IMG/VR virus record: IMGVR_UViG_3300032287_000924
Span: 1 to 30,024 of that record
Reading direction: 5' to 3' (one strand)
DNA from: a virus
Length of the DNA stretch: 30,024 nucleotides
Shown: positions 2,886 through 28,391 of the stretch, in pieces
How positions within the stretch are numbered: position 1 is the first letter of the stretch
Layout: each line of letters opens with the position of its first letter
Notes under the pieces: model-generated
Seen by the model: the letters and a program-made list of their open reading frames with translations, nothing else
What the model was told of the DNA's origin: nothing
The model's database searches: none
Made by a program: the position numbers and the translations under genes

Positions 2886-3147
2886 ATACTTTTGTACTAT
2901 CGCTATTCGCTTTTTCCAATTGATCAATCAATGTAGGATAAACACGTTTGTAATATTCACACATCTTATCCCAATCACTATCAACTACTTTACCTTCAAT
3001 AACGCATTTGTCAATCTTCTTTGATTGAAAATCTAGTATTACATTACAGGTTTGAATGTCACTAGTGCGAGTACGTTTACTAATAGTAACCATCTCATCG
3101 ATTTGTCCGTTTGGTTTACGAACATATGTAATTAAAAAATATCTCAT
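2884..3147 (-). CDS. conserved hypothetical small protein downstream of gp44
   Basis: Protein of 87 aa beginning MRYFLITYVRKPNGQIDEM, with a beta-rich N-terminal half and an aromatic, charged C-terminal helix (DSDWDKMCEYYKRVY). It has no catalytic motif. I recall equivalents of similar length beside clamp-loader genes in cyanomyovirus-like genomes, function unknown. It is too short and dissimilar to be gp62 (about 187 aa in T4) or RegA. The ATG overlaps the gp44 stop by 4 bp and GGAG lies 8 nt upstream. It ends at the bidirectional terminator, so it is the last gene of the gp44 operon. Confidence 0.7.
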   Translation of the reverse strand: MRYFLITYVRKPNGQIDEMVTISKRTRTSDIQTCNVILDFQSKKIDKCVIEGKVVDSDWDKMCEYYKRVYPTLIDQLEKANSDSTKV

Positions 3148-4070
3148 GCTGTCAACTCCACCAATGTCGCTGCCAAACTAATTTCAGGAATACCTACTAG
3201 TGGCAGATTTGCTAGACCATTACGAATCGTAATGATACTTGCATCACGCTTTTCTTGATCCTTGCCCCACAAGTCTAAGTTGTCATACATCCATTTATAT
3301 GTATCTTCAATGCGTGTAGGATATAGTGCAATGTACTGCATTAATTGTTGCCTACCCTCAAGAATCTTACCAGACTTGAATAGGGTCGTTGCTTCCAACA
3401 ACAACTCATGTTCGCTACTCCCCTGTGCTTGAGGAGGCAACAATACACCTGTGTTGCTATTGACTTGTAACTGATTCAAACATTTACGCAAGTCTGGATA
3501 ACTAACACGTACATAACTATCAAGTGTATCTAAGTCAAACTCAACACCCTCAGTAACCAATACTGTCGCCGCACGTGCTGTGAACTCTGTGCGATCTGGC
3601 TTTGTGATATGTACTTTGTGACAACGACTCTCACGCAATGCTGGAATAATCTTTGTCTCATAGTTACAAGTAAGAATAAAACGAACTGTGTCAGCATATG
3701 CTTCCATATCGTTACGCAATGCCGCTTGAAAGTCTGGTGTAGTATAGTCAGCCTCATCAAGTAGGATAACTTTGAATGTACCGAACGGCATAGTCTGTGC
3801 AAATGTATTGATTTTATCTTTAACGATATCAATACCACGCTCACGTGACGCATTGATTTCCATTACATCATAATCATCAATACCTAGTTCATGTATCAAT
3901 ACTTTGGCAAGTGTAGTCTTACCTGTACCTGGATCACCACTCAATAACAAGTGCGGGATCATTTTATCTTTAATCCAACTGTTTACTTGGTTCTTCAATC
4001 GTTCATCAACAAACACATAATCGTTTACTGTGTTAGGACGATACTTTTCTACCCATAATTGATTCTTCAT
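3144..4070 (-). CDS. gp44: sliding-clamp loader large subunit (T4 gp44-like AAA+ ATPase)
   Basis: Protein of 308 aa, close to T4 gp44 (319 aa). It loads the gp45 sliding clamp onto primer-template junctions for replication and, in T4, indirectly for late transcription. Visible motifs: N-terminal LWVEKYRPNTVNDYV typical of clamp loaders, Walker A GDPGTGKTT (45-53), Walker B VILLDEAD (101-108), sensor region FILTCNYETKIIPALRESRC with the SRC arginine-finger motif (148-150), and a C-terminal helical collar. gp45 and gp62 are not in the window. The start ATG overlaps the preceding stop (ATGA). If the late-type octamers elsewhere are real, clamp loading by this protein would be needed to use them. 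Confidence 0.96.
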   Translation of the reverse strand: MKNQLWVEKYRPNTVNDYVFVDERLKNQVNSWIKDKMIPHLLLSGDPGTGKTTLAKVLIHELGIDDYDVMEINASRERGIDIVKDKINTFAQTMPFGTFKVILLDEADYTTPDFQAALRNDMEAYADTVRFILTCNYETKIIPALRESRCHKVHITKPDRTEFTARAATVLVTEGVEFDLDTLDSYVRVSYPDLRKCLNQLQVNSNTGVLLPPQAQGSSEHELLLEATTLFKSGKILEGRQQLMQYIALYPTRIEDTYKWMYDNLDLWGKDQEKRDASIITIRNGLANLPLVGIPEISLAATLVELTA

Positions 4071-4394: not shown

Positions 4395-4775
4395 TTAATA
4401 TACCATATCACTCATTGTTTCGTCACTCATGTATTGATCTGATACCATTAGTATATCATTAGGATCCACTCTACGCAATGTTCGTTTACCCGATTCATCT
4501 TGAATATCGATACCGCGTGTCCAACGTCCGTGACTGATAAGGATCCAATCACCTACTTTAAGTTCACCACCATCATACTCTGAACCAATTGCATATATCT
4601 GTGCCCAACGTGGTCTGATACCTGCACTTTTCATATCATCATTGGGCAACAGAATACCACCATTGGTGATACGATGTTCAAATTTCATATCAGATACAAT
4701 GATGTGTGCCCCGATAGGTCTAAACTTATCACGGGGGATTTTATGTGGTTCGAATGCTAATTTCTTTTCAATCAT
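4395..4775 (-). CDS. GroES-like co-chaperonin (functional analogue of T4 gp31)
   Basis: Protein of 126 aa from the ATG at 4775; the frame is open further upstream, but residues before this Met are lysine-rich and overlap the previous gene. After a short extension the sequence FRPIGAHIIVSDM, then RITNGGILLPND follows the GroES plan: a first beta strand, a mobile loop with the GGI-hydrophobic tripeptide that docks on GroEL, and later VGDWILISHGRWTRGIDI resembling the GroES VGDxVxF strand. A C-terminal extension (about 110-126) is rich in Met, Asp and Ser. It would help the host GroEL fold phage proteins such as the capsid protein. It starts 1 nt after the previous stop and has no good Shine-Dalgarno, so it is probably coupled. 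Confidence 0.8.
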   Translation of the reverse strand: MIEKKLAFEPHKIPRDKFRPIGAHIIVSDMKFEHRITNGGILLPNDDMKSAGIRPRWAQIYAIGSEYDGGELKVGDWILISHGRWTRGIDIQDESGKRTLRRVDPNDILMVSDQYMSDETMSDMVY

Positions 4776-4776
4776 A

Positions 4777-5151
4777 TCACTTTTTCTTTGTTTCAATTTC
4801 TTGTTGTTTAATCTTTTCAATTTCCAAATCATCTTCAAATGATTCTTCTAACTCAAGTTCTTCAGGTGTTAGCTCAGTTAAATCAATCTCTGGTTTCACC
4901 GCTTTTGGTTTATCCGGCTGAATTTTTTGTACAGGTCGTTTAGTAACTTGCGCTGAACGATTACCTACAGTTTTAGAATAACCATCCGTAACTTTTGCTG
5001 TTACTGGTTTGATTATTTTGCCGTGAGGATCGATTGTATCACCTCGAGCATTTAAGTTTTTCACATTTCCTACAGCTCTTGTTTTTTCATTTTTTGAACG
5101 TAGTGCGTTCATATCAACATTTTTACCCATTGCTGTTCTGTATATAGACAT
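4777..5151 (-). CDS. conserved hypothetical, disordered acidic-tailed protein
   Basis: Protein of 124 aa from the ATG at 5151 (MSIYRTAMGKNVDMNALRS), chosen because AAGGAG lies 7 nt upstream and overlaps the stop of the previous gene; in-frame codons further upstream lie inside that gene. The conserved part includes RAVGNVKNLNARGDTIDPHGK; the remainder is basic and proline-containing, followed by a strongly acidic stretch (LTELTPEELELEESFEDDLEIE) and a Lys-rich end. I recall the N-terminal motif from cyanomyoviruses as an unnamed protein. The composition suggests an intrinsically disordered virion or scaffold-associated protein; this is inference. Confidence 0.72.
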   Translation of the reverse strand: MSIYRTAMGKNVDMNALRSKNEKTRAVGNVKNLNARGDTIDPHGKIIKPVTAKVTDGYSKTVGNRSAQVTKRPVQKIQPDKPKAVKPEIDLTELTPEELELEESFEDDLEIEKIKQQEIETKKK

Positions 5152-5161
5152 AATTTTCTCC

Positions 5162-5668
5162 TTATTTGATAAACTCATCAATCGATAAGTCATAATACAA
5201 ACTATTTATACGGTGTACCCCTAGCAAAAACAATACAAAACTTGCTACACTAGAGCCACGACCTACTCCCCAAACGATATTGTTTTTACGCATTGTATCA
5301 ACCAAATACTTTAAGTATTGTAACAATACAAACATATTGCGTTCTTGAAACAATATAAGCTCTTCACCTGCACGTTGTAGTTCTGCTTCATTAGTACATT
5401 GATCCAATACAAACTTAGCAATGTCCAAGTCTTTATATTCAGTGGGCATGTACCAGTTTGATTGATTGTTGTTATCAAAATCTTCTATTGATATTTTTGG
5501 ATCAATATACTCAATCAATTCGGGTTTAGATTCAATAGATAAAATATCACCTAAACTAATATTTGATTCAGTATATGCTTTTTTTAAAGTACGTGTTGGG
5601 TCACGCATATACAAATCACATAAATCGTTTTCACTTAGTATAAGTTGACCATAAATATCAGTACGCAT
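5162..5668 (-). CDS. short DnaE (DNA Pol III alpha)-like protein lacking the catalytic aspartates
   Basis: Protein of 168 aa. Residues about 95-168 align by eye with the start of the palm domain of bacterial Pol III alpha: an ELILFQERNMF helix, then VWGVGRGSSVASFVLFLLGV (about 132-151), then INSLYYDLSIDEF. This is the family pattern of GRGS, then a hydrophobic helix, then P/S-L-x-x-D-L-x-x-x-x-F. In a full polymerase the catalytic PDxDxD motif follows at once; here the protein stops after FIK. PHP, fingers and other domains are absent. It cannot polymerise DNA alone and may bind nucleotides, DNA or the host replisome. Similar short proteins occur in aquatic T4-like phages (memory). There is no Shine-Dalgarno; a sigma70-like promoter ends 5 nt before the ATG. 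Confidence 0.7.
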   Translation of the reverse strand: MRTDIYGQLILSENDLCDLYMRDPTRTLKKAYTESNISLGDILSIESKPELIEYIDPKISIEDFDNNNQSNWYMPTEYKDLDIAKFVLDQCTNEAELQRAGEELILFQERNMFVLLQYLKYLVDTMRKNNIVWGVGRGSSVASFVLFLLGVHRINSLYYDLSIDEFIK

Positions 5669-5673
5669 AATAT

Positions 5674-5703
5674 ATTATAGCACCGTTGATTGTAAAAATC
5701 AAC
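5674..5703 (-). promoter_or_regulatory. sigma70-type promoter of the DnaE-like gene with palindrome over the -35
   Basis: On the minus strand TTGATT (5702-5697) and TATAAT (5679-5674, full match) are spaced by 17 nt, and the -10 is followed after 5 nt by the ATG at 5668. Transcription would start at or next to the start codon. A perfect repeat GTTGATT-N5-AATCAAC (5685-5703) covers the -35 and part of the spacer. It has no following T tract, so it looks more like an operator than a terminator. Confidence 0.7.
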
Positions 5704-27422: not shown

Positions 27423-27776
27423 ATGGCATTATTAAGACCTATATGTTCCCTGTGTAATAAAAATTACAAAGCTATCAACTATACACGTGCAGGAATCACT
27501 CACTATCGCAGTACATGTGATGAATGTGGTCGTAAGAAAAATAAAGAAAAACCTAGAAAAGCAAACTGGACTAAAGGTGGTTACAAGAAAAAAACCACAT
27601 GTGATTTATGTGGCTTTAAAAGTTTATTTACTAGTCAAATAACAGTCTTTCACATCGACGGAGACCTAGAGAATATTGCTCAATCCAATCTACGTAGTAT
27701 TTGTTTAAATTGTGTTGAGGTTGTTAAGAAGAAAGAAGTTAACTGGAAGCGGGGAGATTTACAAGTTGACTACTGA
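27423..27776 (+). CDS. HNH-like zinc-ribbon protein (putative endonuclease)
   Basis: Protein of 117 aa with four CxxC pairs: CSLC (8-11), CDEC, CDLC and CLNC. The segment VFHIDGDLENIAQSNLRSIC has the HNH layout (H-x-D-G, then N, then NL-x-x-IC) held by the last two CxxC pairs. The final residues are basic. Small HNH proteins in phages nick DNA at packaging sites, act as homing enzymes, or bind DNA without cutting. The gene points away from the sheath gene and its end overlaps the convergent dNMP kinase gene by 18 bp. The catalytic His is less clear than in classical HNH enzymes, because VFHID has a single His. Confidence 0.68.
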   Translation: MALLRPICSLCNKNYKAINYTRAGITHYRSTCDECGRKKNKEKPRKANWTKGGYKKKTTCDLCGFKSLFTSQITVFHIDGDLENIAQSNLRSICLNCVEVVKKKEVNWKRGDLQVDY

Positions 27777-28391
27777 GTTAACCTGCTTATGTAAATTATC
27801 AATTGTACCATTGTTATCAATATAGTGGTCATACAATAATCCAATGCTACTGTACTCACTTGCGTGTACACTATAGTTTGCTAATTCTACCATAGCTTTT
27901 TGATATTGTTCACTACCTTGAGGTTCATTGTTATAGTCAACTGCTGAACTATACCATACTGGTCGTTCACCTCGACTAACACGCATTGTGATTCCACCTA
28001 CAGTTTTTATAGAATTAACTTCATTAGCAAATCGACAATCAGTAATTACAATATTGTCATTAGTCTGTCGTAATTTGTTCTCAACGCTAGCTACCCAAAT
28101 ATCTTTATGAAAACTATTGCGGCAAACTTCAGTACCCCAGTATTGTAATACCCAACGTGGGGTAATTTCCATACCAAGTCGGTAACTCCACCAGTCATCA
28201 CGCTTTTCACGCCATTCACGGCTAGACTTAGTTGAACCTTCAAGCAATTCTCTATCCCAACCAAATACTGAGGCTACTGCATCTTTTAATGATGCCGCAA
28301 AACTAACACGTTTAAATCCATGAAACGTACAAAGATAGTCGGCAATCGTATCTTTGCCACTACCAATTAATCCTGTTACTCCAATAATCAT
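27759..28391 (-). CDS. gp1: deoxynucleoside monophosphate kinase (T4 gp1-like)
   Basis: Protein of 210 aa. It phosphorylates dNMPs from degraded host DNA or new synthesis towards dNTPs. The N-terminus MIIGVTGLIGSGKDTIADYL holds the P-loop (about 7-14). Next come FKRVSFAASLKDAVASVFGWDREL, the PRWVLQYWGTEVCR lid-type segment and VITDCRFANEV, the pattern of phage dNMP kinases. Length is near the T4 enzyme (241). GGGAG lies 6 nt before the ATG but is contained in a strong hairpin. It is an early-type gene embedded among late genes, which may explain the sigma70-like promoter. Confidence 0.87.
   Translation of the reverse strand: MIIGVTGLIGSGKDTIADYLCTFHGFKRVSFAASLKDAVASVFGWDRELLEGSTKSSREWREKRDDWWSYRLGMEITPRWVLQYWGTEVCRNSFHKDIWVASVENKLRQTNDNIVITDCRFANEVNSIKTVGGITMRVSRGERPVWYSSAVDYNNEPQGSEQYQKAMVELANYSVHASEYSSIGLLYDHYIDNNGTIDNLHKQVNSVVNL

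Follow-up and report, generated by a model that had tools for sequence, protein, structure and literature searches.

A conserved phage gene that probably encodes the GS-motif chain of a split minimal family C DNA polymerase

The minus-strand gene F1 lies in a 30,024-nucleotide stretch of viral DNA (the window; IMG/VR record IMGVR_UViG_3300032287_000924, positions 1 to 30,024) and is homologous to the start of the DNA polymerase III alpha palm. It ends at a conserved split point, is under purifying selection and co-occurs in phage genomes with a second gene, F2, in which all metal ligands of the active site are conserved. We consider it likely that the two chains form a minimal family C DNA polymerase, to which F1 contributes the GS motif and F2 the catalytic residues, and which would carry out short synthesis beside a family B enzyme. 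Features of the F1 region are collected in Table 1.

The sequence-only reading had taken the C-terminal part of F1 to be DnaE-like, and profile comparisons confirm this. Residues 91-167 match positions 18-94 of the 260-position PF07733 profile (E = 6.6e-9, above the Pfam cut-off), phrog_11127 ('DNA polymerase', 171 positions) covers the whole protein (3e-38), and the F1 family profile aligns with residues 322-393 of E. coli DnaE in solved structures (5.9e-5). The HMM-HMM comparison that the same reading had proposed, of the F1 family with Pol III alpha, is likewise significant (hhalign, 3.3e-10, probability 96.7%). A narrow F1 profile (A1) retrieved nothing real in a sequence search of the PDB; broader profiles led to Pol III alpha. 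No relative of the first 90 residues of F1 was detected in DnaE.

As the alignment reaches DnaE residue 393 and the first catalytic aspartate is E. coli D401 (PMC3919608), F1 stops about 7 residues short of the PDxDxD position, just where the first reading had placed its end. The end point is shared by 166 of 166 relatives, in which the frame terminates at most 6 residues from a common point, 0-6 residues past the DnaE-like region. No PDxDxD-like motif was found within 4.5 kb 3' of F1 in 80 relatives, nor anywhere in the window.

Table 1. Features of the F1 region, in positions of the window
Feature	Position	Strand	Basis and remarks
F1, probable N-terminal half of split minimal DNA polymerase III alpha	5162..5668	-	ATG start, 168 aa; PF07733, phrog_11127, F2 partner in relatives
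Pol III alpha palm-start region, F1 residues 91-167	5168..5398	-	PF07733, profile alignments, AlphaFold2 model
GVGRGS nucleotide-binding GS motif, residues 134-139 (= E. coli DnaE R362-G363-S364)	5252..5269	-	GxGRGS in 166/166 relatives
E165 codon, near-invariant Glu at the DnaE R390 position	5174..5176	-	Alignments; E165 at least 90% conserved in 66 diverse sequences
Promoter-like TTGATT-17-TATAAT	5674..5702	-	Ends 5 bases before the F1 ATG; kept in diverged relatives
Small conserved gene 3' of F1	4777..5151	-	Probable start 5151 behind AAGGAG (listed ORF start 5193); phrog_14844; relatives in 156/170 F1 loci
GroES/gp31-like cochaperonin ORF	4395..4838	-	phrog_931, Cpn10; in 155/163 F1 loci with room
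gp44-like clamp loader large subunit	3144..4070	-	phrog_168, 3.5e-70; in 125/139 F1 loci with room

Six reference phages were searched genome-wide with the full-length DnaE family, phrog_405, and each yielded a second ORF (6/6). This ORF, F2, encodes about 190-200 aa, belongs to phrog_11778 and is matched by phrog_405 at 3.2e-9. Its motifs (D-x-D-x-D, the H-x-x-G strand, KxD, RP-x-K and F-K-K-x-H) follow the order found in DnaE from PDxDxD via D555 to the fingers, and its N-terminus extends at most about 15-20 residues ahead of DxDxD. The split point is hence closely defined, with F1 ending at E. coli residue 393 and F2 beginning just before 401. The catalytic aspartates of the C family, E. 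coli D401, D403 and D555, are all present in F2, which also keeps D405, the residue separating DnaE from PolC (PMC3919608). DxDxD and KxD are kept in 182 of 182 F2 sequences, a 183rd being cut at a contig edge. Across more than 160 sequences per half, the metal-binding aspartates, D405 and the KxD lysine of F2 are invariant, as is the GS motif of F1. A direct sequence search of F2 against the PDB gave a weak best match (0.011), and a smaller profile gave nothing real; the assignment is based on the phrog_405 match, the collinear motifs and the fold match described below. In one F2 gene, Atu_ph07 gp074 (NC_042013.1, ~58799-58870; locus L093), the annotated start omits the DIDIDF N-terminus; the open frame continues upstream through this stretch to an in-frame ATG. 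Other F2 genes carry the annotation 'putative membrane protein'.

Stand-alone F1 is present in 62 phage records and F2 in 63, and all 62 F1 records also hold F2, as matched by per-genus counts and the rows shown rather than by a full accession list. The 63rd F2 record is an incomplete 109-kb Klebsiella record with F2 only. Twelve other, weak F1 matches were left out of this comparison: 11 of them lie in Thomasclavelia, Myxococcus, nickie and Bacteroides phages, where the examples opened proved to be genuine longer DnaE genes, and the twelfth is left unclassified. Among the IMG/VR matches listed, 15 of the 17 F1-bearing contigs near or above 250 kb hold both genes in one copy each; the two without F2 may be incomplete. 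Relatives in IMG/VR number at least about 570 for each half.

The first reading had regarded F1 as solitary, and this view does not hold. Relatives do carry the rest of the polymerase, with its aspartates conserved, as a separate gene in the same genomes; it is not the next frame or the next gene, and F1 and F2 are tens of kb apart. For the present phage, the closest collinear relative among the matches listed is a 50.5-kb IMG/VR contig, which aligns with the window from ~609 to 29684 and has an F1 95% identical to the present one. Its F2 lies at 47.1 kb, about 21 kb past the point matching the right end of the window; the F2 gene of this phage should therefore lie at a similar distance, some 21 kb, to the right of the 30-kb record. 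The split mini Pol III is also present in 141-kb Alishewanella phages (loci L007 and L089; OQ508956.1) and is thus not confined to jumbo phages.

The presence of F2 bears directly on the function first proposed for F1, namely that it acts by itself as a mimic of the host polymerase, binding or blocking a replisome partner of the host. Such a decoy could well be small and separate and could retain a well-conserved DnaE-like region, as F1 does. However, the catalytic partner accompanies F1 in 62/62 phage records, the residues conserved in F1 are those of the nucleotide-binding active site, and the hosts spread across many genera, including Agrobacterium, Pseudomonas, Vibrio and Salicola. A stand-alone mimic is thus not supported, and we regard it as very unlikely.

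Even less probable is a joining of the two halves into a single chain, through a split intein or frameshifting. Precedents come from the split inteins of cyanobacterial DnaE (PMC3919608) and from MIJ3, a relative whose family B polymerase contains an intein (PMC6892783), but the end of F1 and the start of F2 leave no room for intein halves and the distance between the genes speaks against it. An intein, a frameshift or a continuation in the next gene was rejected on the PDxDxD-free sequence 3' of F1 in the 80 relatives, and no fused F1-F2 gene occurs among 166 F1 ORFs.

F1 is under strong purifying selection. Pairwise dN/dS against its four closest relatives is about 0.03, and a wider comparison of 45 pairs gives a median of 0.13, a rough value given that dS is near saturation in the wide pairs. 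Overall identity to six aligned cultured-phage homologues is 26-38%. Together with the fixed end in 166/166 relatives, the low dN/dS bears out the earlier impression of a maintained protein free of decay. That DnaE is represented by no more than a fragment would suit a decaying remnant of a full-length DnaE, an explanation to which we assign practically no probability: it is ruled out by the dN/dS of about 0.03, the fixed end point and a neighbourhood conserved in deeply diverged phages.

F1 had further been credited with a promoter of its own, a claim that stands in one respect and fails in another. The count of promoter-like pairs in the region is no higher than chance (9 found against 8.7 expected from shuffles), but the boxes are conserved in diverged relatives (loci L008-L048 and L086), where a TTG and a TATAAT-like box recur at the same place and the -10-like box is found 5-7 bases ahead of the F1 start codon. 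It is this conservation, and not the number of sites, that makes the promoter probably real. No Shine-Dalgarno sequence is visible upstream of F1 (window 5669-5702), which, combined with a -10 box so near the ATG, suggests a leaderless mRNA. At the other end of the window, a terminator-like hairpin with TTTTTT directly abuts the listed ATG at 28391 of a minus-strand ORF (27759-28391).

The genes surrounding both halves are largely those of replication. In nearly all loci with enough sequence, F1 is followed by the small gene, the GroES/gp31-like gene and the gp44 clamp loader. Primase and helicase genes adjoin F2 in most loci, and in close relatives of the window a 3'-5' exonuclease gene (PF16473/phrog_255; locus L103, 1453-2624, minus strand) directly precedes F2, its stop overlapping the F2 start (ATGA). 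Exonuclease relatives occur at 80 of the 183 F2 loci and represent a possible proofreading partner. A small convergent phrog_11637 gene (locus L091, 3408-3761) also lies beside F2 in 176/183 loci. A family B DNA polymerase is encoded in 6/6 reference phages and 7/8 large IMG/VR contigs; none is visible in the 30-kb window. A PF07733 search for a full-length DnaE elsewhere in the reference phages and large genomes finds F1 only.

Taken together, the motifs of the two proteins point to a division of labour in which F1 would supply the nucleotide-binding GS motif and F2 the aspartates of PDxDxD, that of KxD as the third (D555 in E. coli) and shortened fingers. The two chains probably join non-covalently to form one Pol-beta-like nucleotidyltransferase site. 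The assembled and catalytically active pair would then perform short, non-processive synthesis in replication or repair alongside the family B replicase, for example to fill gaps, repair DNA or extend primers. The neighbours speak for this reading, with the clamp loader next to F1 and the primase/helicase and exonuclease next to F2.

Structure models offer a further view of the two halves. AlphaFold2 single-chain models reached a pLDDT of 90.8 for F1 and of 91.7 for the F2 of a 352-kb relative. The best PDB match of each in Foldseek was a Pol III alpha structure, 7pu7 for F1 (probability 1.00, TM 0.45 by query, E-value 0.03) and 4iqj_B for F2 (probability 0.99, TM 0.52, E-value 0.03). With E-values above 0.001, these fold matches agree with the Pol III alpha assignment rather than prove it independently.

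Compared to DnaE, F2 is about 79 residues shorter between the equivalents of D405 and H511, a region corresponding to the thumb, and about 89 residues shorter between those of P640 and F756, where the finger segment with R709, R710 and K714/K715 is gone. R390 and R709 are invariant in the aligned DnaE set; F1 has a Glu at the R390 position and F2 is without the R709 segment. Lengths and alignments further indicate that the pair is devoid of PHP, thumb, clamp-binding and (HhH)2/C-terminal domains. The GS motif holds the nucleotide in Pol-beta-like enzymes, and we take R390, R709 and R710 to be triphosphate contacts, as in the Thermus Pol III ternary complex. With the metal ligands kept and the arginines and thumb lost, the metal chemistry of the pair is probably retained, while its nucleotide binding and its grip on DNA must differ; loss of the three arginines may weaken dNTP binding.

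These losses, of the whole thumb, of the R709/R710 finger segment and of R390 to Glu, would also suit the main rival explanation, in which the complex has ceased to be a DNA polymerase, or is one only secondarily, and serves the phage replisome as a structural, DNA-sensing or other nucleotidyltransferase accessory. However, retained metal-dependent catalysis predicts just the invariance seen in the metal aspartates, D405, the KxD lysine and the GS motif, and we consider this rival unlikely. Retention of the metal site and GS motif alongside loss of the triphosphate-holding arginines and DNA-gripping thumb lends some tentative weight to the idea that the pair is a family C nucleotidyltransferase doing other work next to the family B replicase, for instance nucleotidyl transfer to primers or ends, or sensing of primer ends.

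Should the two-chain polymerase that we favour be active, it would represent a very small family C core, formed by two separate chains beside a family B enzyme. Both proteins are still 'hypothetical' or 'putative membrane protein' in many records; being widespread, conserved and small enough to express, they are directly testable.

Relative to the bacterial DnaE of E. coli, the order of the GS, PDxDxD, KxD, RP and F-x-K-x-H motifs is preserved across F1 and F2. DnaE is a single chain of 1160 aa, whereas F1 and F2 amount to about 365 aa in two chains, with no PHP, thumb, clamp-binding or OB domains, a Glu in place of R390 and no R709/R710 finger segment. Full-length phage DnaE proteins (phrog_405; Mx1, nickie, Bacteroides DAC19) also belong to family C, but are single chains of ~1130-1290 aa. 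Another, unrelated-looking DnaE split is seen in Thomasclavelia phage TR-TP1 (locus L194, 3044-7669), where an HNH endonuclease gene separates the two ORFs of the DNA polymerase.

The same F1 protein was recorded in a 2017 paper on Pectobacterium phage CBB, which lists CBB_328 as a truncated Pol III alpha of 172 aa (PMC5259590); the part of that paper dealing with this protein does not mention the F2 partner gene. A search of the open-access literature for an experimental test of the split mini-polymerase found none, and the only later work on the topic that it turned up was a paper from 2021. In its account of group 2.2 jumbo phages, that paper describes a split minimal Pol III alpha from genome comparisons (Iyer et al. 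2021, PMC7824862), and the enzyme kind is thus already known, the present F1 being another member. The system it outlines agrees with the present one: its two proteins stand alone and come from genes far apart, the N-terminal part binding NTP and the C-terminal part Mg2+ and template, with a family B polymerase alongside and no other Pol III domains reported there. Its authors propose that such a pair acts as one enzyme and serves as a model of ancestral Pol III, and the short, non-processive synthesis that we favour is close to what they suggest. The present copy differs from the set in that account by coming from an uncultured phage; the protein family extends to the 141-kb non-jumbo Alishewanella phages, and the account does not remark on the lost arginines. 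New here are the finding that more than 160 sequences per half share the split point and the metal ligands, the occurrence in 141-kb phages, the conserved promoter near the ATG and the absence of the three arginines.
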